This document shows positions 492 to 62,900 of a stretch of 64,000 nt of DNA, one piece after another (the stretch's first letter is position 1; each line of letters begins with the position of its first letter). The stretch comes from Rhizophlyctis rosea (taxonomy: Eukaryota; Chytridiomycota; Chytridiomycetes; Rhizophlyctidales; Rhizophlyctidaceae): positions 1-64,000 of the forward strand of contig JADGJC010000127.1 in assembly GCA_027596075.1 (NCBI GenBank). The letters are read 5' to 3'. Below the pieces are notes generated by a model, which was not told where the DNA came from, made no database searches, and was given only the letters and a program-made list of their open reading frames with translations. Position numbers and translations under genes: made by a program.

Positions 492-3400
492 TTACAATAC
501 ATCTACAACCTCATCATCATCGCCCTCCCCGCCCACTCGTCTCTGCCTCAACCCTTCATTCCCTCCCGCCGCTCCGTCATGTTGAGCGACGGGAGCAGGA
601 GGAGGATTGGCGGATTCAGTGGTGGCTCGCTCCGATGTTCCAGGAGCCGACCCACTACTTTCCGCAGTGACATCCTCCCTCGCCGCCGTCCCAGTCCCCG
701 CACCCGCACCACCGGTTCCCACCGCCGGTCCACCCTGCGGTCCCAATCTCTGTCCCTGCGGCTGACCCCCTACCACCACCGGCGCCACAGGCACCTGCGC
801 AAGCTGCCGCTGAACCTCCGCCGCCCTCCTCAACACCTCCGCCTGCCTCTGCTGCTGTCCCTGAACCTGCAACCTCTGCCTCCACCCAACCAAAAGTGCC
901 GCAACCATACACAAAATAACAACGACAACCATCTCAGGCGAGTCCCCAAACTCCTCGTCGTCCCACTCCTCCTCCCACGCATCCAGATCATCCCCATCCT
1001 CCCCAACACCCGCCATCGCCCCCTCCCGTCTCTTCTTAGCATACCACTCCCGAAGCCGTTCATCATCCAACGGCACATCCTCCAAATTCTCCGCCTCCTT
1101 CTCATCCGTCTGCGGCTGCGCAGGCTTATGCTCCGGCAAAGGCGGCAAAGGATCCGCCCCGGCATCCTTCTTCGCATTCGCATCCGGAACAAACCACTCC
1201 GGCTTACTCGCCGTTGTCCCTTCAACGTAATATCCCCAAATCCACTTCACAGCCAGTCTTGCCAGACTCAATTTGACCGGCACGTATCCCTCCGGGTTCG
1301 TCGTTGCCGCCAAATCGTACCACCGTTTCGCCAGATGGAAGTCTTGCGAAACACCGATCCCGCACTCGTGCATCCATCCGAGGTTCCACATGGCGACTGC
1401 ACTGTAGAGCATATCGGCTGCTACTTGGTAGTGCGAGGCGGCTTTGGCGTAGTCTGGCGCGCCGGATGATGGAGGTCGTGACCGGACTTTGATCCACGTT
1501 AGGACGTCTTCCAAATGAAGGGGTGTTCCTTGACCTTCCGGAGCCGGAGTAGAAGAGGAAGATTCCTTCTTCACTTCATCGGCACCTTCCAAAGACCTCT
1601 GACCAGTCCCAACCCCATAATACCAATAATCCCCAAGCTTCACCCGTGCATCCACATTCCCTTGATTTGCCGCCCGACTCCACAACACCAATGCGGGCTC
1701 ATACGGGTCTTGATCGGGTGCAAACAATTTGGACGTTTTGGGATCGAACAAGCCTGCGTCGCCAAAGTCAGTAAGGACCGTCACCTGCTCCAATACGGCA
1801 AAATGTCCTCACCTTTGTCAATCAACCAAGCACCATTTGTCTGCGCCAACTCCACCCCACGCTCCGCAGCAAACAGATACCGAAGGAACGCTCCCTCCAT
1901 GTCTCCTTCATTGAACGCGGCTTCGGCATCACGAAGCGTCGGGTCCTCCCAATCACCCTTCTCTGATACTCTCTTCAGGAACTGTACAGACATTCGCATT
2001 AGCGGTCATGAGCAACGACCATGCGTGAAAAATCTGAACGTACCACTAGACCAGTAGCACAAGTCCCATCAACCACATTTCCTTTGACATGCATATCCCC
2101 AATTTTGTACATCGCTCCAATATGATCTTTGTTCGCGGCCTTGTTGAGGTATGTAATGGCTTCTTGTTGGATTTTCACATCCGCTGCGAATGGTTGTTCT
2201 GCACAAGATGGGTTTAGAGAGCACCCCACCTTTTTATCAATTCTGGACGTCAGGGTACCCACCTAGGAACAGTTCTCCCAAATTATAGAGCGCATCCGCG
2301 CTATCCCGTTGAATAGCAGCCTTGAAGTATTCTGCCGCTTTTGTCTTGTCCTGATATGGCACAGCGCATTGTATTGGTTACGTTCTCCTCACAACTTCAC
2401 TTTCTCTGCATAACACAAACCTTGGGCAATCCGCCAGCACCCAACAACGACATTCTCCCCAAATTGTTCAGACTCATCGGATTATCTCCCTTCGCCCCTC
2501 TCTCGAACCACTGCCGTGCAGTCTTCTCGTCCACTTCAACACCCTCTCCTCTCCAATACATGATGCCCAGATAACCAGCAGCGGTACTTGCCGCCTGTAC
2601 AACCGAGGCGGACAAATCTGCACCGGTAGGTGAGGGATATTGCTGCGCAGCTGCGTAGAAGTATTTCATGGCTAGAGCGTAGTTCTGTTTGATTGTCGGT
2701 GTGCCTTGGTAGTAGAGTTGTCCGACCAGGAGCTAAATGATATTGCGTCAGCTGCTGTCATTGATGTGGAATACATATCATATGGAACTCACCTGCGCCA
2801 TTGCTTTTCCTGCATCCGCTTCAATCTTGTAATACTGCAGAATGTCCTCTGGCGAAGCGCTGGTTTGCTGTACCGGATTGCGCACACTAGGATCCCCTGA
2901 TCCGCTCGCACCATGCCCATATACCCCACCTTCCTCGTCCGGGAGGCGAATCCGTGCAATTGGCATTGTCAATCCACCGGGCGGGCCAGATTTCCATTTA
3001 TTGAATGCTAAGAAGTACAACGTTTGTAAATTCCTTGTTGGTTTGAACAAGTCTGGAAACTTTGAAGACAATACCTTTCTCGGCCACCCGCCCATAATAC
3101 CATGCTGCATCCTCACAATGCTTAGGTGTTCCCACGCCATTGGCATGCCAATATCCTAAAGCCTGTTCCGCGAACGTATCCCCATTCGCCGCTGCAAAAG
3201 ATGTGTAAACCAGAGCCTGGAAGTTGGATTGTTAGCAATCTGGAAGTAGATCAGGAATCCGGCACCGATTTCGATACGTACTCTCGCATAATTCCTTGGC
3301 ACTCCAACCCCCGTAGCATACATCATTCCCACATTACGTTGTGCTATCGCATTTCCAACGCCCTTTGCCAGTCCGATGTAATATCCAAAGGCCGCGCCCG

Positions 3401-4129
3401 CGTTTCGTGGATATGAATACTTTCCGTACTAGCGCGAAATGAGATAATGCATACATTTTCAGATTGATTTCTTTCCGCGTACGATCCTTACCAAGTTCAT
3501 GTCTCCCAAAGTCAAGTTACTCTCCACATGGCCCATTGTCGCCAAGATTCTCAATGTCCTAACTGCCTTCCCACGCTTGACTTTTGGAGAATCTTTAGAA
3601 TCAATCTTCGGTATCCGATCGAACCAATCTTCTCCGGGTTGCAAGTCATGAAGGTCTTCCGTTGAGATTGCAGATGGAAAGTCCCAATCATCGTATGTGA
3701 GGGAGGCGGAAGACGAAGGGAAGAGCTGTCGAATGACACGCGTAAGGATGTCAGATTGATTTGTGGGTGATGTGGAAGATCGTTTACGACGGCGGGCAAG
3801 CGAGGAAAGAAGACTGGTTGTTTGGGCGTAGACGTGAGATATTTTATCTAGTGTTTTGAAGGTGTGTGAGGCTCTGATATACTATTAAGCGTCTTCCACT
3901 TCGTCTCACCTTCTCGACTCAGCGGCTTTCCTTCAACCACGTCGTCACCAGTGTGTCCAACTCCCGAGTTCGTCTGGGCGAGTCCCACAAGGACACAAAG
4001 TACAACTGCAAAGATAAAATACGTTCAGCTCATATATAAGAGACGTGGTAAAGTTCAAAAACGTCAGGTGTGGTGCGTACATAGTGCGAGCCCAAGCCAC
4101 GTCAGTCTGGAGCCTCGACGACTCGTCAT
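492..4129 (-). CDS. HRD3: HRD3/SEL1L-type ERAD protein with Sel1 repeats
   Basis: ER membrane partner of the HRD1 ubiquitin ligase; it presents misfolded lumenal proteins for ER-associated degradation. The start is the ATG at 4129-4127: exon 1 (4129-4081) joins exon 2 (4005-3910) in phase and gives a clear signal peptide (MTSRRGSRLTWLGLALFVLC). Several Sel1-like repeats follow, with signatures such as YLGIMYWRGEGV and MWNLGWMHECGIG, and spacing A...W...AA typical of SEL1/Hrd3. Near the C-terminus is one membrane segment (about 945-870, MVVVVILCMVAALLVGW) followed by a Q/G/A-rich tail, matching the type I topology of Hrd3. At least six introns interrupt the gene; internal boundaries were not all resolved. 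The family call is firm and orthology to HRD3 is an inference from the signal peptide, repeats and C-terminal anchor together. Confidence 0.88.
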
Positions 4130-6278
4130 TTTGACCGACGCTGGTATGCAAACAACAGGAATTGGGTCGGATATATAAGATTGTGGTGATACGTGCGCAG
4201 TTGCCCACTATGTCCTCTGTTGGCGCAAATTGTAGGTTTTGAAGAACGGGAAGATGTTAGATGAGTGGGATGGCAAGTGCGAGGAGTTCGATGGATAGCC
4301 GATGATGGAACGCGGGCCATGTGGCGGGGTTGGAGTGGCCAGCCGTCATTGGCTGGGATTTTTGGGCCACACTCGCATATGGTCCATCTTCAATTTTTCA
4401 TCCAGGTTTCTCTTCAACACGCATGCACCATCCAACATCGGACTTTCTCACAGCCATCTTCGCACGGTTCATTGGCACCACGCCCCAACGGCTTCGAGTC
4501 CCGCTGGAACCATCTCTGTGCCTGATGTGGAGGTAAACCACACCACTCTACCCCACTGCCATTTGCATTACAGATCAAGGCGGGGTCAAGTGGTAATTGT
4601 ATAGGTCCTTCGGGGAAAGGTACACCGGATTCCGGGAGCGGTACCGGACCCGTTGGTCGTGGCCGCTTTTTGCTGGTCCGTCTGGGCTGTCAAGGCAGTT
4701 CTTCCGGGCGTGAAAGACTCGAGGGTAGTCCCCACCTTCAAGAACCAGGTTGGGGTGTGGAGGGAATCACCCCACCTCAAGATCAACTAAAAGGTGGTCC
4801 AGGCTCTACTCCGACAACGACACCGGCTTACTCACTCTAAACCCCATCCATCACACGGCAACGAAAACGTGACGACACTCACAACGAAAAGACCGCCCGC
4901 GACGTCGCTCACCATCATATTTCTTGGCGTGGTGACAGTGGTCATCAGGCAGCAAATTGAGGATCATGTTGGTTGTCGAGGATATCAGGTAAAGCAGGAT
5001 TTTTGTGTGCCTATGTCGAGTCTTGATTCGCAGATCACGCAAAATGCTCATCCCGCTCTACGTTCCGCGGGGGCAGTCTCGCTAGGCTGTAGTGTCGCCA
5101 TGACCTTGACTGGTCATGAGGGTGGCAAGCCCCTGTAAAGACAGAGCCAGCCTACCGCCAACCATCTACGGACTCGAGTGAGATCGGTCACTCTCAACCT
5201 CTGCACATCGGAACATCATTTTCTCCTCTCTCTTCCAAGTCTCCTTCCTTTCTCCACTTGCTCCAAGGGCAATCGGAAACTCATGCTCAAGATCCTCAGG
5301 CCTCCAACACGGAAGTACTTAGCTCCTCGAAACCAATGTAGCACCTAGCTTTGTATAGATTAGTTTGTAGGTTTCGGGTTGCCCACTGGGCCTAGCTGGC
5401 ACACGCTTCGGCGTGGATGCACGGGCTATCCCCCTGGCAGTCGACACATTTTTTGTGTGGAACGTGGCGGGCCGTACGAGTTTCAGAGGCATGAGCGAGT
5501 GAACCTTGCCGGGCGTTTTTCTTTCTTGCTTCTTTCTTTCCTTTATAATGTTCCGTGCATCTCTCCAACCCTTTTCGACAAAACAGATATTGGACATCTA
5601 AAAGTGAGGTTTGGTGGGTTTCCCTCACTATAATAAATCCCGCACTGGCTTGCAGCCAGCTGCACCCACATATTTGACATGTGTTCATTGTGCCCGAGTT
5701 TGAAGACCATGATATGTACGCCCATGTCGGTGTACATGACAATGTGCTCCGCCCACAATCCAGATGGCCCATTCGTCACACAGCTTTCGGGGCAACGATT
5801 TGTGGCGCCGGCTCACAGTTCACTTTCCCAAATCTGTTTTCGTGTTGTGTGGAGTAATATGATATCTTCTTCATCAGTTCGTGGCCACCAACAATGCCAT
5901 GTTGTACTTTCAGTCTCCATCTAGGGTAAGGAACACGCTGGTCTCTTCGCCACAGGACAGGTCAAAGTCTCCCATTCCGGATCATGATCTTATTGACTGG
6001 CAATACTTCCGGGACGGAACGGAAACGTTCAATTCTTTGGACGCCCCACATAGGCAAGTTCAAACTGTATTTCCGGCCCCCACCCGGATCATCAGAAATA
6101 AACAGACCAGGCCTGGCCAAGACCCTGAGCACTTCACTTTCAAAGCCACACTTCTCGATGGATGATTTCTACACAGATTTCGATATCTGTAGATCATTTT
6201 TCAACCTTTATATACCGGGAATGGACCTGTCAACACCTTGTCTATTCCCGCTCTTCTTACAAGAATAGTCATATCACC
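4130..6278. other. Intergenic region, 2.1 kb
   Basis: No convincing gene on either strand; frames are short, lack splice-joined partners and carry no known motif. The notable content is a twister-type ribozyme on the plus strand at 5084-5153, annotated separately. The last few hundred bases probably hold the promoter of the gene starting at 6279. Confidence 0.5.
5084..5153 (+). ncRNA. Twister-type self-cleaving ribozyme, copy 1
   Basis: The fold matches twister type P1 with an extra P3. P1 is AGGCT 5084-5088 with AGCCT 5149-5153. The expected U|A cleavage site is 5090/5091. P2 is TGTC 5093-5096 with GACA 5140-5143. GCC follows at 5097-5099. P3 is ATGACC 5100-5105 with GGTCAT 5112-5117. P4 is AGGG 5119-5122 with CCCT 5131-5134, closing the 8-nt loop TGGCAAGC. 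GTAAA (5135-5139) then follows, and GAGCC (5144-5148) supplies GCC to pair with loop GGC, the T1 pseudoknot. The CAAGC loop, the (R/N)UAAA linker and the GAG strand opposite the cleavage site are the conserved twister elements. A related copy lies at 8124. Activity is predicted, not shown. Confidence 0.82.
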
Positions 6279-7091
6279 ATGTGCGTTCGTAAAGTTGCAT
6301 CGTTTGCGTCAAACATTCCACAATCGCTCAACCTTCACCCTCTGTTGAACGAAACACATACTTCACCTGCGGCCATCGAAAAGCCTTTGCCTGTGTGCAG
6401 TCAAGACCAGGGTGAAGGTCGAACCTTTGTCGCGTTGCAGGATGAGCCGGAGGCTGGAAAAAGAAGGCTCACGCAACAAAAAGACGCATCAAAATCGACT
6501 TCCAATAGCCAAAACAGCCAAGCACCACCGGATGAAACGACCGTGGTAGTCCGGTTACAGGAGGAGGTGGACAAAATTTGGAGCGAGCTGGGTAAACAAG
6601 CCGCCCGGATGCGAGGGGAGGAGAACCAGAGATGGCTGGAACTTCCGCACGGCGACCACCCACAGCTTGAACAACCACCATCTATCAAAATCAAAGCCCC
6701 CAGCACACCCCCACGTCCATCCACTCCACCTCCTCCCACCACCGCCTCAAACTCCCTATCACTCGACCACGCAAAAGACATCCTCGTCTACGCCGAAAAC
6801 GACCTAGAAACCAAAGTCCTCATCAACTCAAGTATGGATGTCATCCTGGCTGGTGCGAGGGAAGTGGAGCGGTGGAGGGGTGTGATTTCTGAAATGGAGA
6901 AACGGGGCAGTTTTAGTGATTTGGTGAAGAAAGATGAGTTGAAAGGTGTGGTCGAGACGGCGGCGCACGGATTTATGGAGGGGGAGAGTCGTTCATTGCA
7001 GTTGAGACATACGGAAGGGGAGCTTGCGTTCCTTGTTGGGTGGATATTGTTCATTCTTTTGAATTTGTGGAGGGGGGTTAGGTGGCTGTAA
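6279..7091 (+). CDS. Hypothetical tail-anchored protein
   Basis: A single-exon frame of 270 codons that I do not recognise. I chose the ATG at 6279 because its context (CACCATG) is good and the upstream in-frame extension is low quality. The protein has a polar N-terminal half with a short predicted coiled coil (VVRLQEEVDKIWSELGKQ), a Pro/Thr-rich linker (APSTPPRPSTPPPP), a second helical part (VLINSSMDVILAGAREVERW) and one hydrophobic segment at the very C-terminus (FLVGWILFILLNLW) followed by RGVRWL. This is the topology of a tail-anchored protein of ER or mitochondrial outer membrane. The gene sits between two twister-type ribozymes on the same strand. Function is unknown. Confidence 0.7.
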   Translation: MCVRKVASFASNIPQSLNLHPLLNETHTSPAAIEKPLPVCSQDQGEGRTFVALQDEPEAGKRRLTQQKDASKSTSNSQNSQAPPDETTVVVRLQEEVDKIWSELGKQAARMRGEENQRWLELPHGDHPQLEQPPSIKIKAPSTPPRPSTPPPPTTASNSLSLDHAKDILVYAENDLETKVLINSSMDVILAGAREVERWRGVISEMEKRGSFSDLVKKDELKGVVETAAHGFMEGESRSLQLRHTEGELAFLVGWILFILLNLWRGVRWL

Positions 7092-7497
7092 GGCGATATC
7101 TTGGTATATCTTGTAATATATAATTTTGTAAAATGGCACATGCGGTGTATTCAACTACAGAGGTCCTGAGTATGTGCGTAAGTTGGGAGAATAGAACGCA
7201 TGAAGACATGCCGAGAATGTTGTCGACGCGACGGCGAATAGGGGGCAAGAGGCAAGGGTGCATGTTGACGATGCTGCTCACAACGGCAAAAGAATTGTTG
7301 TGAATACGATGTCCAAAGCGGAGCGAGCTCAACGGTTGTATTCAGCATTCCAATGCAAGCGGTTGCATTTTCTGATGTTTGGAATTTCAACTTTGGGAAA
7401 TGCGAAGTTCGGGACTCGCTTCTGACGTTTCAATGCTGTGTGAAAGAAGGGCTGTCACAGTGGAGAAGAGCAAAAAGCCGAGCTAGCGTGAATAGCT

Positions 7498-7576
7498 AAG
7501 CCCGTCGTGGCGAATCGAACCCTTGACTATGTGGGTCTGTGGTGACGCGCTACTCCGGACTAGGCTAAACACCCGC
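7498..7576 (-). repeat. tRNA-like relic or SINE head with A and B boxes
   Basis: Read on the minus strand, a 5' GCGGGTG is followed by an A-box-like stretch (TAGCCTAGTCCGG, about 7554-7566) and, about 40 nt later, a near-perfect B box GGTTCGATTC (7512-7521). The D arm can form with one mismatch, but the anticodon stem does not pair and the T stem is not complementary (AAGGG against CGCCA). It is therefore not a functional tRNA; a tRNA-derived SINE or a decayed tRNA gene fits better. Confidence 0.5.
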
Positions 7577-8123
7577 TCATTGACTGCTGTGTATTGTGAG
7601 TGAAGACAATCATCATCTGCAGCCCGTGATCGGGCTGGACCCTGGCGGCAAAGGAACTGTGACTACGCCACAGCGCAAACTGATTGGACGAAGCCCCGGC
7701 CGCCTTACGTAAAGGACTGAGACCAAAACAACCTGCAAAACAATTTTGCCCTCCTCTGAGCTCGAATTTCTTCTTTATCCGTCAGAATCATTCTGGCACT
7801 TTCAAGTGGTATGTTGGCCCGCCTGGTCAGGCCATCCATCCATCGATTCCTTTTTGGAATTGCAGCTTCGGTCGGTCCGTGTCGATCTCACCAGGGAATC
7901 ATGATCAATCGGGCTGTCTACGAGGCCAAGACCTGCGTCCGCGCAAGTCTTTGGGTAAATATCCATTTCAAGCACCGCACCACAAGTCGATATCCACTTC
8001 GCGGCGCTTCAAGACCCCAGGAGTCAGACGGGTTCGCACTCTCTGGGTTCTGGGTTTCAGCTCCACTATCTCGCCCCCGACATCTATACGACCCCCAGTC
8101 CGTGCGGGACAGTCAAACGAAAA

Positions 8124-8192
8124 GGCTGTAATGTCGCCATGACCTTCCACGTCATGAGGGTGGCAAGCCCCTGCAAAGACAGAGCCGAAGCC
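8124..8192 (+). ncRNA. Twister-type self-cleaving ribozyme, copy 2
   Basis: Same architecture as the copy at 5084. P1 is GGCT 8124-8127 with AGCC 8189-8192. The expected cleavage site is T8129|A8130, followed by AA as in canonical twisters. P2 is TGTC 8132-8135 with GACA 8178-8181. GCC lies at 8136-8138. P3 is ATGAC 8139-8143 with GTCAT 8151-8155 and a different loop from copy 1. P4 is AGGG 8157-8160 with CCCT 8169-8172 around loop TGGCAAGC. Linker GCAAA and strand GAGCC (8182-8186) complete the core. Compared with copy 1 the P3 stem is one pair shorter and two extra bases (GA) precede the P1 3' strand. Core residues are the conserved ones, while loops and flanks vary, which is what selection on an RNA fold predicts. 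Confidence 0.8.
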
Positions 8193-8842
8193 AGTCCTAC
8201 CCCAAGACCAAGACCATTCCCGGCGACGCTTCCACGAAACACACAAGACCGACAGCTGGTGAGTTTACGGGTACGAACCTGTAAACACTAACACCCTGTG
8301 CATTCCTTTTTGGAATGGCGAATAGTCACAAAAAACTTGCGTAGCTACCGGGGGAAGGAGCTACCTATTGGAACTTGCGGAAAACGGTGACTTCGTGCGA
8401 GGAAACCAAGACCCTCACGGGAGCACCCCCTGCCGTGGTGATTCCTTTGCGAATCTGGACGTCCGTCAACCAAGGCCTGTCTTTCGGGACGGGCTATGGG
8501 CGATGCGATGTCAAGGGGTTTTGGTTGTGTTCAATAACAACTGCGACAACTCGGAAGCATCAAGACTTAGTTTAGTTCTTATATACTCTATCGTTGTCGT
8601 GTATGTACTTTCCCCAATGAGATTACTGTGTACCTCTTATGTGTAAGGCTTTTCGTAATGCATCAGACAGAGAAGACCGATCCTTCGACATATTCAAATC
8701 TTGTTCTCATGAAATATCAGGCATCAATATCCATGCAAAATCACCGTGGTATATTCCCTTCCTCTCATCATTTCTACAACCTTTCTACATACAAACAAAC
8801 TCCCGTTTCTCAACAACCAAGCCACCGTCCACCCCTTCCGAA

Positions 8843-10686
8843 TCATGACCACTTCAACAAAAGCGTCATGCTAATCGGCAGATTCTCATCCGTAACAGTG
8901 ATGGGCTCCCCCTCATCCACCAATTCGCTGACAGTCTTGGAAAGATTCGCCCTCGTCTGTCTTTCCAACACCCCGCGCATGAAGAGCGACTTCGTGGCGG
9001 TGCGGAGGGAGGGGCGTTTGAGTTGTCTACAAAAAGATGCATCAGCAAAGCATTTCATGCATCCATCCCTCTCAACCGTTCAAAATGATGACAGAGAAAC
9101 TCACGTCCTCTGGTTCTCCAACAAAATGTCCAACAGCTCCTGTAATGTCATGTCCTTCGACACCGTGAGCGTCACGGCCGCCTCGCCGCCGCAGACGGGG
9201 CATTCGTCCGACTTTTCCAAGGCAAAGGTGTGCGTGTACACCCCGTGGTCGCCAGTGTAGAGCATGTAGTTGTTCACGTAGTTGGCGCAGGCGGTCACGA
9301 CTTTCAGGGCTTCGTTGGCGCAGGCGGCTGCATCATCAGTGCGGAGAATGTTAGGAACCAAAGAGGTTTGTACGGCAGGATCCCGGTGAGACTCACCTGC
9401 AACAATGGCATTGGTGGAGGCGATGGCCGGTATTATGTTTTTGACGACACCTTGGGTGAGGGAGTAGGTTACTCCCGGGATGTTGAATTCTGATGCTCGC
9501 GATTGTGCGGTTTCGAGGAGCCATTTGATGTGCTCGGGGTCGTCACCGTCGAGCTTTTTCTCTGGTGGATGCTTGTGTTAGATGCTATGAACAGCGAACC
9601 GGTCTTGTCCTTTCCGAGATATAAAATCTCACACGGCAAGAATGTTTTACACACCTGGGAACGCCTTTGGCCATTGGAGAACAGAGGCCCATTCAATACA
9701 ATGTTCTGGCAAGCGAGGCGTGTTTGCGATGGTACACATTGGGAATGTCGTCGGTTTGGTCTGCATGTCCAGCGAGCATTCGTAGCATGCGGTGATGCTG
9801 GGGATGATTATACGAGACTGGCCTTTGAAACCTGATTGAAGGCAAGTTTCAATATTCAAGCTCCGTCAGAGTGCAATTAGAAGGTCAATGACCCACCCTC
9901 AGTGCCTCCATCGATGATGGGGATGAGTGTCTCTGGGTCTTCCGGATCGAACATTCCCACGACCGTTGCGTTGATCCATCTTCGTGCTTCAACGGAATCA
10001 AGTCCGCAGATGATGATAGTGAATTGGCTGTAGTAGTCCTCGTCCTTGTCTTGGATCTTTCCGAAATATCTGTTTTCGCATTCCCGTTATGAGATCTCAT
10101 ACCCTCCACACCAACGGAGAAGTTGGCTCCACTTACGGCGTCACTGTCACTCCCGGTATTCTCTTCATGATAAACTCCGCAGCGACTTCAGCCTTGGGAC
10201 GACCGACGTCTGCTTGACTGCATGATGTGAGTCATGATGCTCTAAACAAGTCGTTTTGCCAAGGAACTAGCTCAACGTATCTACACACCGGAACAGGAAC
10301 TGCCGATTCAAATTGGAGATGTCGATGGTATCCATGTCAATCACATGGATGTCTTTGAACCCGACGAGGGCGAGGTCCTTCAAGAGCTCGCAGCCCAAAC
10401 CACCCGCGCCAATGACCAGAATTTTCTTTTCGTGTAGAACGTCCTTGACCTAGTGCAAGAATTGAGAAAAACAGTAAAACCTTGCTCAGTTGCCGTGCTA
10501 CTTTACGTCTTCACCGGGCTCATAACCGGGTTGCGCGAACGGCCCAGGGCGCTCGAGGTAGGTATATACGTCGCGCCAGCGGCTGAGTTGGTCGGCAAGT
10601 TCAGCTATGCTTCAGCGGTTTGCTAACGTGGGAAGAACTTACCCTGGCCAGTCCTTCATTTCGACACCTTCCATTGCAACACTCAT
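8843..10686 (-). CDS. UBA3: UBA3, catalytic subunit of NEDD8-activating enzyme E1
   Basis: Activates the ubiquitin-like protein NEDD8/Rub1 by adenylation and thioester transfer, with ULA1/NAE1 as its usual partner; it feeds cullin neddylation. The start ATG (10686-10684) opens [14 protein letters not shown]. The adenylation domain shows the nucleotide-binding glycine motif ([10 protein letters not shown]) and the Asp-rich strand leading to [12 protein letters not shown]. Zinc-ligand pairs CYEC and CPVC are both present. The catalytic cysteine lies in [11 protein letters not shown] (around 9700), the signature context of UBA3. The C-terminal part ([10 protein letters not shown] to LLLKWS) corresponds to the E2-recruiting ubiquitin-fold domain. 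At least seven short introns interrupt the frame. Assignment is strong; it is shorter than UBA1 and lacks that enzyme's inactive first half. Confidence 0.93.
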
Positions 10687-11120
10687 GCTATCGAGATGTT
10701 TGCTTCAAAGCGAGAATTTTACAGAGACTACTTTGAATTATGGTAGAGCTCGTGACGTCCACCACTGAAGTCTTTGGCGGTGGTCAATGTTGAAAAAAAT
10801 AATGCTGCTAATTCGGTTTTGCAAGATGAGGATGGAGACGTGTGAACAAACAAGGCCAAGGTTGGGCCAAGACCAGGCCATAGTAAGCCACGGCGGGCCT
10901 AGGCGCAGCATTGCGCAGCGCCGTGGCTTGTGCTCAAGACTCACTCTGTCTCTTTGCCAACTCCCTGCCCTTTCTCCTATTTCTCTCTTACGCTTGAACC
11001 ATCTGGACCGGACTTCGCTTGCATCAATATTTGTAGATCACTACCCTACGACCTACACCCTCCCTGATCAGCAAAGAATTTTTCTTTCACAACCACTCAC
11101 TTTCTCCTTACATAAACACC
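10687..11120. promoter_or_regulatory. Shared divergent promoter of UBA3 and COA6
   Basis: 434 bp separate the two divergent start codons. The half nearest COA6 is pyrimidine-rich with CT runs (about 10945-11110), typical of fungal promoters. No specific factor site is recognised. Confidence 0.45.
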
Positions 11121-18133: not shown

Positions 18134-18340
18134 GTGCGGTAGACGTGCATCGCTCTGCTGTTCTTGCTCAAGTGCGGTATACGTTGCATCGCTCTGCGAA
18201 TCATCTTGTGCGGTAGACGTGCATCACTCCACTATTCTGCGAGTGCGGTAAGACGTGCATCGCTCCATTGAGCTCCACATGCGGTAGTCGTGCATCGCTC
18301 CACTAATCTGCAGGTGGGGTAGAGCTGCATCGCTCCACTG
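18134..18340. repeat. Minisatellite, six degenerate copies of a 35-38 bp unit
   Basis: Copies start at 18134, 18172, 18208, 18243, 18279 and 18314. The conserved core is GCGGTAGACGTGCATCGCTC, usually followed by CACT or TGCT; about 10-14 variable bases separate cores. Individual copies carry single-base changes and one-base insertions (for example GCGGTAAGACG), so the array is old or evolving. Confidence 0.85.
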
Positions 18341-22522: not shown

Positions 22523-22631
22523 NNNNNNNNNNNNNNNNNNNNNNNNNNNNNNNNNNNNNNNNNNNNNNNNNNNNNNNNNNNNNNNNNNNNNNNNNNNNNN
22601 NNNNNNNNNNNNNNNNNNNNNNNNNNNNNNN
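22523..22631. other. Assembly gap (109 N)
   Basis: A run of unknown bases inside the 3' end of UTP25. Its true length is unknown. Confidence 0.99.
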
Positions 22632-59960: not shown

Positions 59961-62900
59961 CTATGTCATACCTCCAAGTTTGATCAGCTGCTTCTCAATG
60001 CGGTTTATGACGAATGCAAACTCCTCCGCATTTTCCTTCAGTAGGCCATAACGACCCGACGCGCCGAAATGACCCCATCCCATATTGCAATCAAAGATGA
60101 GTTTCTGCAAAGACGTTTCAACCTAAAACGTTCGAGAGGTTGAAGACAAACGGCGCACGACTTACTCTTCTGTCAGGATCATCCTCATCGCCATGAAGTT
60201 TCAAGTCTCTCATCTTTGCCACCCACTTCGCCGGCTCCCAATATTGCACCCGAGGATCGTTCAGACCTGCTTTCACCAGAAGATGGGGGAACTGCCATAC
60301 CAGTACTTGTTAGAGATGCGCCCCGAAAATTTTTGAGGGTTACATCATACCTTAATGCCCGCTTTCAGATTATCATACGGCGAGTACGAGAGCATGTAAT
60401 CGAAGTAGTCCTTCTCGTTAGGGTTGCCCCATTCCTCGTACTCGTTGACAGTTAATGGAATGCTGGGGTCCATCACTAACAAGCATCATCAGTATGATTG
60501 CCTGGCCGTGGCTCGCCACGAAAACCATGTACTCACTTGTGTTGATCACGTCAACGAAAGGGACGGAGGCTGAGCGTCCATGAATGAGCCAGTGCCCACA
60601 AAGAAAAAAGGAGACACATCGTTCACTCACCAATCGCCACATGAGTCAAATCCGGCCTCATATTCAGCACCGCACCCATCAAAAGCCCACCAGCCGACCG
60701 TCCTTCCATCGCCATCAACTCATGTGTAGTAAACTTTTGCTCAACCAGATAATCGCCCGCAGCAATGAAATCCGTAAAAGTGTTGCGCTTGTGCTTAAAT
60801 TTGCCCGTTTCATACCAGGCCTTCCCGCACTCCCCACCACCACGAATGTGAGCAACTGCATACACAAACCCTCGATCCACGTAGCTGAATAGCTTTTGGT
60901 CGAATAGAGGATCTGGTAGGGTGTCAGCATGCAAATGAAAGGTGTGGACAAAAAGGGTGGCCGTACCGAGTGAAATGCCATAGCTTCCATAACCATAAAG
61001 GCAGCATGGGTTCGTTCCATCTCCTTTGAACACATCCGTTTTGTACAGGATGGAAACGGGAATACGATCAGTGACAGGCGTATCAAACGGCGCTTTAGCA
61101 GATGTCTCTTGCGGAACAGGTACGAACACTCTACGCATTGTGTATTGAGATGCATCATAACCGCCTGGTACTTTCTGCATGACCTCGTCGTTAGTCGAGC
61201 AAGTGCGGTCAGCAACATCACCCTCCTCACTTCACCTTTTGTTTCAAAAGCTTCCTTTCTTTCGTGTCCATGTTGTACTCAAGCGTGCAGCGAGGTGTGA
61301 TCAGAGATTCGTAAACAAATCGAGTGACGGGACTGTAGTAGTTTTGCGTGGATCCCTGCAGAATGCATGTCAATCAGCATTATGTGTATACTCGCATTCG
61401 GAAACAACATACACCAGTGTCACCAACGCTGTACAGCTCTTCCGGGAAATCCAAATAACCGCCCTCCTTTGGGTCTGATGACCAAACACGCATCCGCTCC
61501 AACCCTTCAGACCGTTCGTATACTAGACGGCAAATGCCGGAGTCAAAATCAATCAGGATTTTCAAAGGTAGGTGGAAGTCCATCATTTGCTACTTACGAA
61601 CGACATGCTTCTGGAAAGGTTGGATTGATATCAGTTCCTTGTATGGGTCATAAGGAATGACATCCACCCAATTACTCTGCTCCGTTTTGTCCTGTTTGAT
61701 GGAACTCGTCAGGTGGGTAGCCTTTCCGCAAAGGAGATTAACCACTACACACCAATGGACACGCGCACAACTTGTAGTTCAAGAACTTTCCGCCTCCATC
61801 TGTGAGCACCAAGAACTTATCCTCTTGATGCTCGACAGAGTATTTATGCCGATGCTCGCGTTTTTGGAACAACCGCAGCTCTACACAGAATGACATGAGT
61901 CAAATATGTTATGTATACGAGTATTTCAAGGAGCTTACCAGCATTTGGATTGTCAGCATCCAAGGTATACACCTCTCTGGTCAAAGAGCTTTCCGCGTCC
62001 ACAAGGATGAACTTGTCTGAGTTGGTCTTATCGATGTGCACCTCAAATTTCGCGTCCTCTTCATGGAAAATCAGCGCATCGTCAGCTTGTGCCGTTCCGA
62101 GCTTGTGACGGAACACTTTGTGCCTGGATCATCCAGTCAGATGTCAGCGGAGGATGAATGTTAACATGAAATAACATACGATCGATGGATATGGTCCAGC
62201 ACGGTGTAATACACGGTGCGACTGTCATTGCACCATTCCATACTACCAGAGCAATCATTGATTGTATCACTATCGCGGTTTTTGCCAGATTCCAAATCTT
62301 TGAAATGCAGTTGATAATGCTCATCACCGTTGGTGTCAAGAGCGTATGCCAAGATCTGATGCGGGTGAGGTCAAGCTCAGAAAGCGGAGAGTCGAATGCG
62401 ATGGAGTTGTCACCTTGTGATCGGGGCTGGCTTCGCAAGAATACAAATGCTGATACTCGTGAGTGAAGGTGTTCTGGTCAAGAAGTACCTGCATTGCATT
62501 CTGTGAGAAGAGGCCGCCGAACGTTATCCGCACTATCAACTGCATCGTACCTCTTCTGACGCGTCCATGGAATCACGTTTCCTGGCGTAAATGGGATAGT
62601 TCTTACCCTTCACGGTACGCTTATAATAGTAGAACGGGCTTTTGAACACCGGAACTTCCTCGTCATCCTCTGAAACCAATGTTGAGATCCTTGCACAGGG
62701 ATGAAGGATCTTTGATACATGACAGCACCTTGAATGCGGGACAGGAACTCATTGTAGATTTTGTCGGTGAGTTCTTTGTTGGGTTCCAGATAATTCACCT
62801 TGGCATACGCATTTTCCGCCTGTTCATTAACATATGAGTGAGATCTTACCTTTCGGATCACAGTTGATCTACACCATGCGCCATCAGCAACTGCCTCACA

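Follow-up and report, generated by a model that had tools for sequence, protein, structure and literature searches.

Introduction

Structures of the twister ribozyme have been solved for rice (4OJI) and for env22 and env9, which carry P3. According to PMC6154101, 78% of annotated twisters contain P3, and a 2023 review describes the role of small ribozymes in plants and most organisms as not known (PMC10226581). The twister-P1 family (RF03160) comprises P1–P4, T1 and T2, a U|A cleavage site, a CAAGC loop motif and a GAG strand, and the ribozyme that is the main subject below is alike in all of these. Many self-cutting copies in fungal genomes have been reported in the form of HDV-like variants, 230 of them in 26 species according to PMC5640933.

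Here we analysed a 64,000-nt stretch of DNA (the window; positions 1 to 64,000 of contig JADGJC010000127.1, forward strand). It comes from Rhizophlyctis rosea, a soil saprotroph among chytrids. The initial annotation, made from the letters alone, had named a fungal source, and this is borne out by a thiolase gene at about 49.4-51.0 kb, the joined exons of which are 100% identical to the R. rosea 3-ketoacyl-CoA thiolase, with Borealophlyctis nickersoniae next at 86%. The window also contains an overlapping direct repeat at 18134-18340 (138 bases, 76% alike) and a run of about 109 unknown bases at 22523-22631.

Results

Twister-P1 sequences in the window

A search of the whole window against all Rfam families (cmscan) returned five matches at E ≤1, the top two being twister-P1 (RF03160) on the forward strand. 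Copy 1 (W1) matched over its full length at 5086-5151 with 46.8 bits (E 3.1e-7), and copy 2 (W2), likewise full length, lies at 8125-8190 with 46.3 bits (E 4.5e-7) and a predicted cleavage site at U8129|A8130; L-numbers below denote the other twister units of the genome. When positions 3001-7000 were compared with 7001-11000, the sole match at E <0.5 was the ribozyme (65 bases, 91%). The Rfam gathering score for twister-P1 is 67.2 bits, a curator's cut-off and not an anatomical feature. Both window copies score below it, so that a default Rfam search is silent, and no Rfam family was reported in the window at Rfam's own cut-offs. The covariance-model score, which had been proposed as a check on W1, is significant by E-value (taken over the window and all Rfam families) and falls short of the gathering score.

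All pairings of P1, P2, P4, T1 and T2 are formed by W1. P1, with which the match can be extended to 5083-5154, is a 6-bp helix, UAGGCU/AGCCUA (5083-5088/5149-5154), followed by P2 (5093-5096/5140-5143), an optional P3 hairpin (5099-5104/5113-5118) and P4 (5119-5122/5131-5134), which closes the 8-nt loop UGGCAAGC (5123-5130). The T2 pseudoknot joins GC 5097-5098 to GC 5129-5130, the T1 pseudoknot joins the loop strand GGC (5124-5126) to the GCC strand of GAGCC (5146-5148), and the linker is GUAAA. The twister core letters U5090, A5091, AAGC 5127-5130, AAA 5137-5139 and GAG 5144-5146 are present, and the cleavage position predicted earlier, U5090|A5091, agrees with that of the Rfam match. W1 departs from the consensus at 5092, where it has G; A is found there in W2, in the Rfam consensus and in 59 of 61 aligned copies. 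A is a conserved letter at this position, though not necessarily an essential one. With a method that forms no pseudoknots, the fold of 5078-5160 gave a z of -2.7, and 3 of 200 shuffles were equally stable.

Twister copies in the R. rosea genome

We searched the genome (44.1 Mb, 634 contigs) with the Rfam model and with three core patterns. The genome scan gave 61 twister-P1 matches, the best 61 of 3377 candidates scored, of which four exceed the gathering score and among which W1 and W2 do not appear. The core patterns, at 2-3 mismatches, hit 50, 20 and 16 places, whereas their reversed versions, used as controls, hit none. Combining the Rfam-scored matches with the places hit by the three patterns gives ~94 twister candidates, distributed over 61 contigs. 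For 75 of the 94 places the sequence was read, and all 75 matched a purpose-built model, the scores of which are not independent, since it was made from 61 of those 75 copies; the other 19 are known by a 26-30-base pattern alone. A looser core pattern hit 75 places, against 3 in the control, and two extra places look like chance. At 14 unit loci, a loose Rfam threshold gave 18 twister matches and two matches with E >0.4 that resemble chance.

Sorted by letters into families of our own definition, the 75 units fall into A (31, including W1 and W2), B (17), C (19) and D (8). Five family B units (L027, L015, L021, L018 and L001) lie on one strand of contig C624 at 125-164 kb, 7-12 kb apart. Among the aligned copies, the L4 loop reads CCAGC in 12 of 61, all from family B, and CAAGC or CAAGU in the others; the base before the cleavage site is not U in eight (3 C, 3 A, 2 G). 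Scanning viral contigs with the family A core gave 0 matches. Hammerheads were considered as a second expanded class and gained no support: whole-genome searches for hammerhead I and III found 0, but control genomes likewise gave 0, so hammerheads may still be present. Within the window, a weak hammerhead-I-like match at 61662-61718 on the reverse strand (26.7 bits, E 0.028) has CUGACGAG but reads CAAAA for the model's CGAAA; it is probably a chance or inactive sequence.

Covariation of the helices and pseudoknots

Of 66 copies, 61 were aligned, with L014, L044, L058, L059 and L061 excluded as too long, short or odd. The aligned copies are related to one another, so the covariation figures are descriptive. 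Standard pairs occupy 95.2% of the pair cells across the 61 copies, compared with 70.5% in shuffles, none of 500 reaching 95.2%, and the covariation score was 0.598 versus 0.166 after shuffling, again reached by 0 of 500. Sliding the partners along lowered pairing to 33-48%. Two-sided changes, found in 17 of 23 pairs, proved a less telling measure (shuffles average 15.2, and 4 of 500 reach 17). By helix, the paired cells amount to 81.1% in P1, the weakest, 99.2% in P2, 98.8% in P4, 99.5% in T1 (two-sided changes in two of its three pairs) and 99.2% in T2, with two-sided changes in each; all helices covary over the 61 copies, the T1 and T2 pseudoknots included. In a swapped-partner test of the P1 extension, narrow anchors gave a signal in families C and D and none in A and B, and wide anchors gave a signal in A and C, none in B and 53/500 in D.

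The initial annotation had pointed out that T1 is re-paired in W1, as GGC/GCC, and this claim is strengthened by the rest of the genome: GGC/GCC is found in the family of W1, and CCC/GGG, CGC/GCG, CUC/GAG or CAC/GUG elsewhere. Over the 61 copies, the first T1 pair is CG in 39, GC in 21 and unpaired in one, and the second is CG in 34, GC in 23, GU in two, AU in one and UA in one. In T2, GC is replaced by AU in six copies. Pairing in T1 varies considerably across the R. rosea genome, and the re-paired form seen in W1 is one of its states. Every element named by the initial annotation sits where it was placed, and a chance hairpin is ruled out by the Rfam match together with the covariation across copies; judged from its sequence, W1 is almost certainly a twister ribozyme.

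Upstream bodies and unit boundaries

Homology between copies was found to extend about 130-730 nt 5′ of the ribozyme. The ribozyme is included in 16 of 18 chosen pairs, and in 14 of these 16 the homology ends within 22 nt of the ribozyme 3′ end, as in L011/L014 (-730 to +1, 83.6%), L004/L018 (-714 to 0, 80.5%) and L066/L069 (-552 to +22, 86.4%). W1 and L050 are homologous from -639 to -284 and then from -22 to +8. The homology overruns the ribozyme by about 100 nt (up to 112) in L026/L034 and L005/L024, and by 36-96 nt among several units of the C624 cluster. Placed by homology, most of the compared copies are at the 3′ end of conserved, apparently noncoding units. "Intergenic, copy 1", the description first given to W1, was right as to the presence of the ribozyme and missed its setting, namely the 3′ end of a longer noncoding unit (~4447-5154) and about 94 twister places in the genome.

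W1 seems to have two body modules on the forward strand. The first, at 4447-4869, is of the alpha type and is common to L050, L037 and, more weakly, L032; its core (4710-4850) has three genomic matches, each then followed by a twister. The second, at 4910-5016, resembles the upstream part of L066 and L069 (-176 to -70 of W1 against -564 to -462 of L066, 76%; -185 to -70 against L069, 74%). Genomic matches to other bodies are followed by a twister in 6 of 7 cases for the beta type, 3 of 7 for the delta type and 3 of 4 for the L066 type, and at the body places without a listed twister the looser core pattern finds no core. Bodies also cross the ribozyme families: L064 (A) goes with L001, L004 and L018 (B), L032 (C) with W1, L037 and L050 (A), and L008 and L023 (C) with L053b (A). 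Tandem duplication of body modules, as direct repeats of ~90-380 nt, was seen within the single units L005, L012, L015, L024, L062, L065 and L068.

The upstream bodies look noncoding. Of 52 gaps in seven pairwise body alignments, 46 have a length not divisible by 3, and changes are spread evenly over the codon phases in every alignment but L026/L034 (9, 0 and 9 of 18 changes). Protein-coding bodies were rejected on these gap lengths and even codon phases, with the frames compared by eye. L004 and L018 share an open stretch of ~60 codons, which is ended in L001 by a frame-breaking gap. Introns had seemed likely by eye in some bodies, but branch-point and splice-site words were not clearly above controls; ACTAAC, for instance, occurs on the ribozyme strand 13 times upstream, 12 times downstream and seven times far upstream. 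Should the twister instead be a 3′-UTR or 5′-leader control element of neighbouring protein genes, and not part of an RNA gene of its own, the position of the units between frames of ordinary length would fit, and rice twisters are described in the UTRs of annotated genes (PMC10226581). However, the conserved upstream bodies have a noncoding appearance, and long frames (at least 220 codons) near the ribozymes, compared by eye, vary from locus to locus and lie on either strand, and we regard a UTR control element as quite unlikely.

A retrozyme-like, non-autonomous mobile element, with the twister in the place of the hammerhead and spreading as a ribozyme-cut, perhaps circular RNA, would account for the many dispersed copies and the sharp 3′ boundary near the ribozyme, and the retrozymes covered by PMC7761336 are multicopy and noncoding. 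Among 33 pairs of neighbours on a common contig, three share a strand and lie <800 bp apart (515, 574 and 795 bp), L053 and L045 each carry two twisters as direct repeats, and the L059 ribozyme is flanked on both sides by a 139-bp, 76% direct repeat. Against this, most places have a single ribozyme, and when 75 units were each compared with themselves, 27 showed repeats, most of them copies of body modules or lying outside the unit. A consistent terminal repeat of the LTR type was thereby rejected, with L053, L045 and L059 as exceptions. Target-site duplications were looked for at the ends of nine units, the 5′ ends of which were placed by pairwise homology alone, and the longest shared word was 4-7 nt, compared with 5-8 nt in controls. 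As far as sequence can tell, the boundary and repeat data do not fit a retrozyme with paired ribozymes. Body identity is also patchy, with blocks of mostly 80-100% adjoining saturated spacers of 12-60%; between W1 and L050 it is 88-95% at -377 to -297, 12-62% at -257 to -57 and 88-92% over the ribozyme. Ancient paralogues with domains under constraint would explain such a pattern better than insertions of recent date. Taken together, a retrozyme-like element is unlikely; a mobile element that leaves no target-site duplication is possible.

Hairpins and flanking sequence

Hairpins with a CUUUUUG loop occur on the ribozyme strand within 700 nt upstream of the twister, 18 of them in 17 of 75 units, with 0 on the opposite strand; the other 58 units have none by the search criterion. 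The same comparison gave 4 versus 0 downstream and 3 versus 0 far upstream, and the bare word CUUUUUG occurs 40 versus 6 times upstream, 13 versus 8 downstream and 19 versus 11 far upstream. The stems vary in sequence from unit to unit and keep their pairing. A second hairpin, with an RNYCG loop, directly precedes the twister in 22 of the 31 units of family A, and 87% of its pairs are formed, versus 69% with partners swapped (0/1000). These counts are not independent, since the motifs were picked after viewing the data and the units are relatives of one another, with overlap between some loci.

All CUUUUUG hairpins that satisfy the search criterion in the 64-kb window, three on the forward strand and 0 on the reverse, are at W1 or W2. 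Those of W2, 5′ at 7844-7862 (z -0.93) and 3′ at 8301-8317 (z -1.29), are in the minimum-energy fold and not unusually stable, and a GUCCG-loop hairpin with 5 of 6 pairs formed lies directly 5′ of W2 at 8092-8108. Around the 3′ hairpin, 8258-8330 reads GUGAGU...CUAAC...AAUAG, which could represent either a small intron or the beginning of another unit. The CUUUUUG hairpin position of W1, at 4661-4678 on the forward strand, has a weak stem (z 0.53) and is absent from the minimum-energy fold. W1 is among the nine family A units without the RNYCG loop motif; a possible hairpin at 5052-5071 (forward strand; CCCGC/GCGGG with a 10-nt loop, stem read by eye) is placed like it, directly 5′ of the twister.

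With its G5092 and weak hairpins, W1 may be a weakened member of the family. The same substitution at a near-invariant position and the same weak upstream hairpins, along with the eight aligned copies that lack U before the cleavage site, could be taken to mean that the units as a whole are the now functionless remains of an ancient element that carried the ribozyme. Nevertheless, many core positions are invariant across all 61 aligned copies, and the covariation score lies beyond that of every shuffle, and we consider remnants very unlikely.

Past the ribozyme, G+C is 0.41-0.43 over +0 to 100, versus ~0.50 farther off. AATATA occurs downstream in 20 of 67 units, compared with 8 of 67 on the reverse strand and 1.7 expected from far windows. 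Any of five AU-rich words was found within 180 nt downstream in 6/23 units of family A, 7/17 of B, 9/19 of C and 4/8 of D, and on the reverse strand in 3/23, 3/17, 4/19 and 1/8, respectively. We infer that the AU-rich downstream stretch may be a poly(A) region, to which W1, W2 and three protein genes examined in the window lend no support: none of the five words occurs within 300 nt after them.

Discussion

We lean towards the reading that the twister units are structured noncoding RNAs with 3′ ends made by the built-in twister. Transcription of the unit would run through the ribozyme into the AU-rich stretch, a possible site of polyadenylation. Self-cleavage at U|A (U5090|A5091 in W1) would then separate the body RNA from the downstream piece and leave, in W1, a body that ends in ...GGCUGU with a 2′,3′-cyclic phosphate; the cut would in this way define the 3′ terminus of a structured RNA that has no tail. 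Several points count against such a 3′-end role, namely the bodies without a listed twister (4/7 of the delta type, 1/7 of the beta type and 1/4 of the L066 type), the homology overrun in some pairs, the few CUUUUUG hairpins downstream and far upstream, their absence from 58 of 75 units, and G5092 and the unformed CUUUUUG hairpin in W1. More tentatively, the units could represent an undescribed chytrid class of structured noncoding RNA genes, ~500-800 nt long and many with CUUUUUG hairpins, in which the built-in twister would replace cleavage/polyadenylation in making 3′ ends and ribozyme and body modules would have been swapped; the units described here are all from R. rosea.

In a literature search confined for the most part to non-subscription papers, we found no paper that pairs "twister ribozyme" with "chytrid" or "Rhizophlyctis" with "ribozyme", and among the matches listed there were no titles on twister families in fungal genomes. 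The ribozyme itself belongs to a class already known, and within the literature searched we found no description of its setting, the 3′ end of noncoding units. With some 94 twister candidates, which where compared lie mostly at unit 3′ ends, the genome suggests one specific and testable job, the making of 3′ ends for an RNA family, and the many T1 versions within one genome constitute a natural test of the pseudoknot.

Among described systems, the retrozymes of PMC7761336 (LTR in plants, non-LTR in metazoans) resemble the R. rosea units in being noncoding, dispersed and each furnished with a ribozyme that cleaves itself. They are described there as using the hammerhead, whereas the R. rosea units use twister, have no consistent terminal repeats and mostly no ribozyme pairs, show conserved blocks amid saturated spacers, and yielded no target-site duplication at the nine unit ends, with 5′ ends placed by homology. 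The 406-nt viroid-like RNA of peach (PMC12542633) is alike in having an RF03160 ribozyme within a noncoding RNA; it is reported as circular with the ribozyme on both strands, whereas in R. rosea we find genomic copies on one strand of a ~500-800-nt unit. The fungal HDV-like variants belong to a different ribozyme class, and the word "twister" is absent from the main text of PMC5640933. Compared with twister-P1 itself, W1 is distinguished by its GGC/GCC T1, its score below the cut-off and its G for a near-invariant A, and R. rosea by having ~94 places in one fungal genome, positioned, where compared, mostly at the 3′ end of putative noncoding units.
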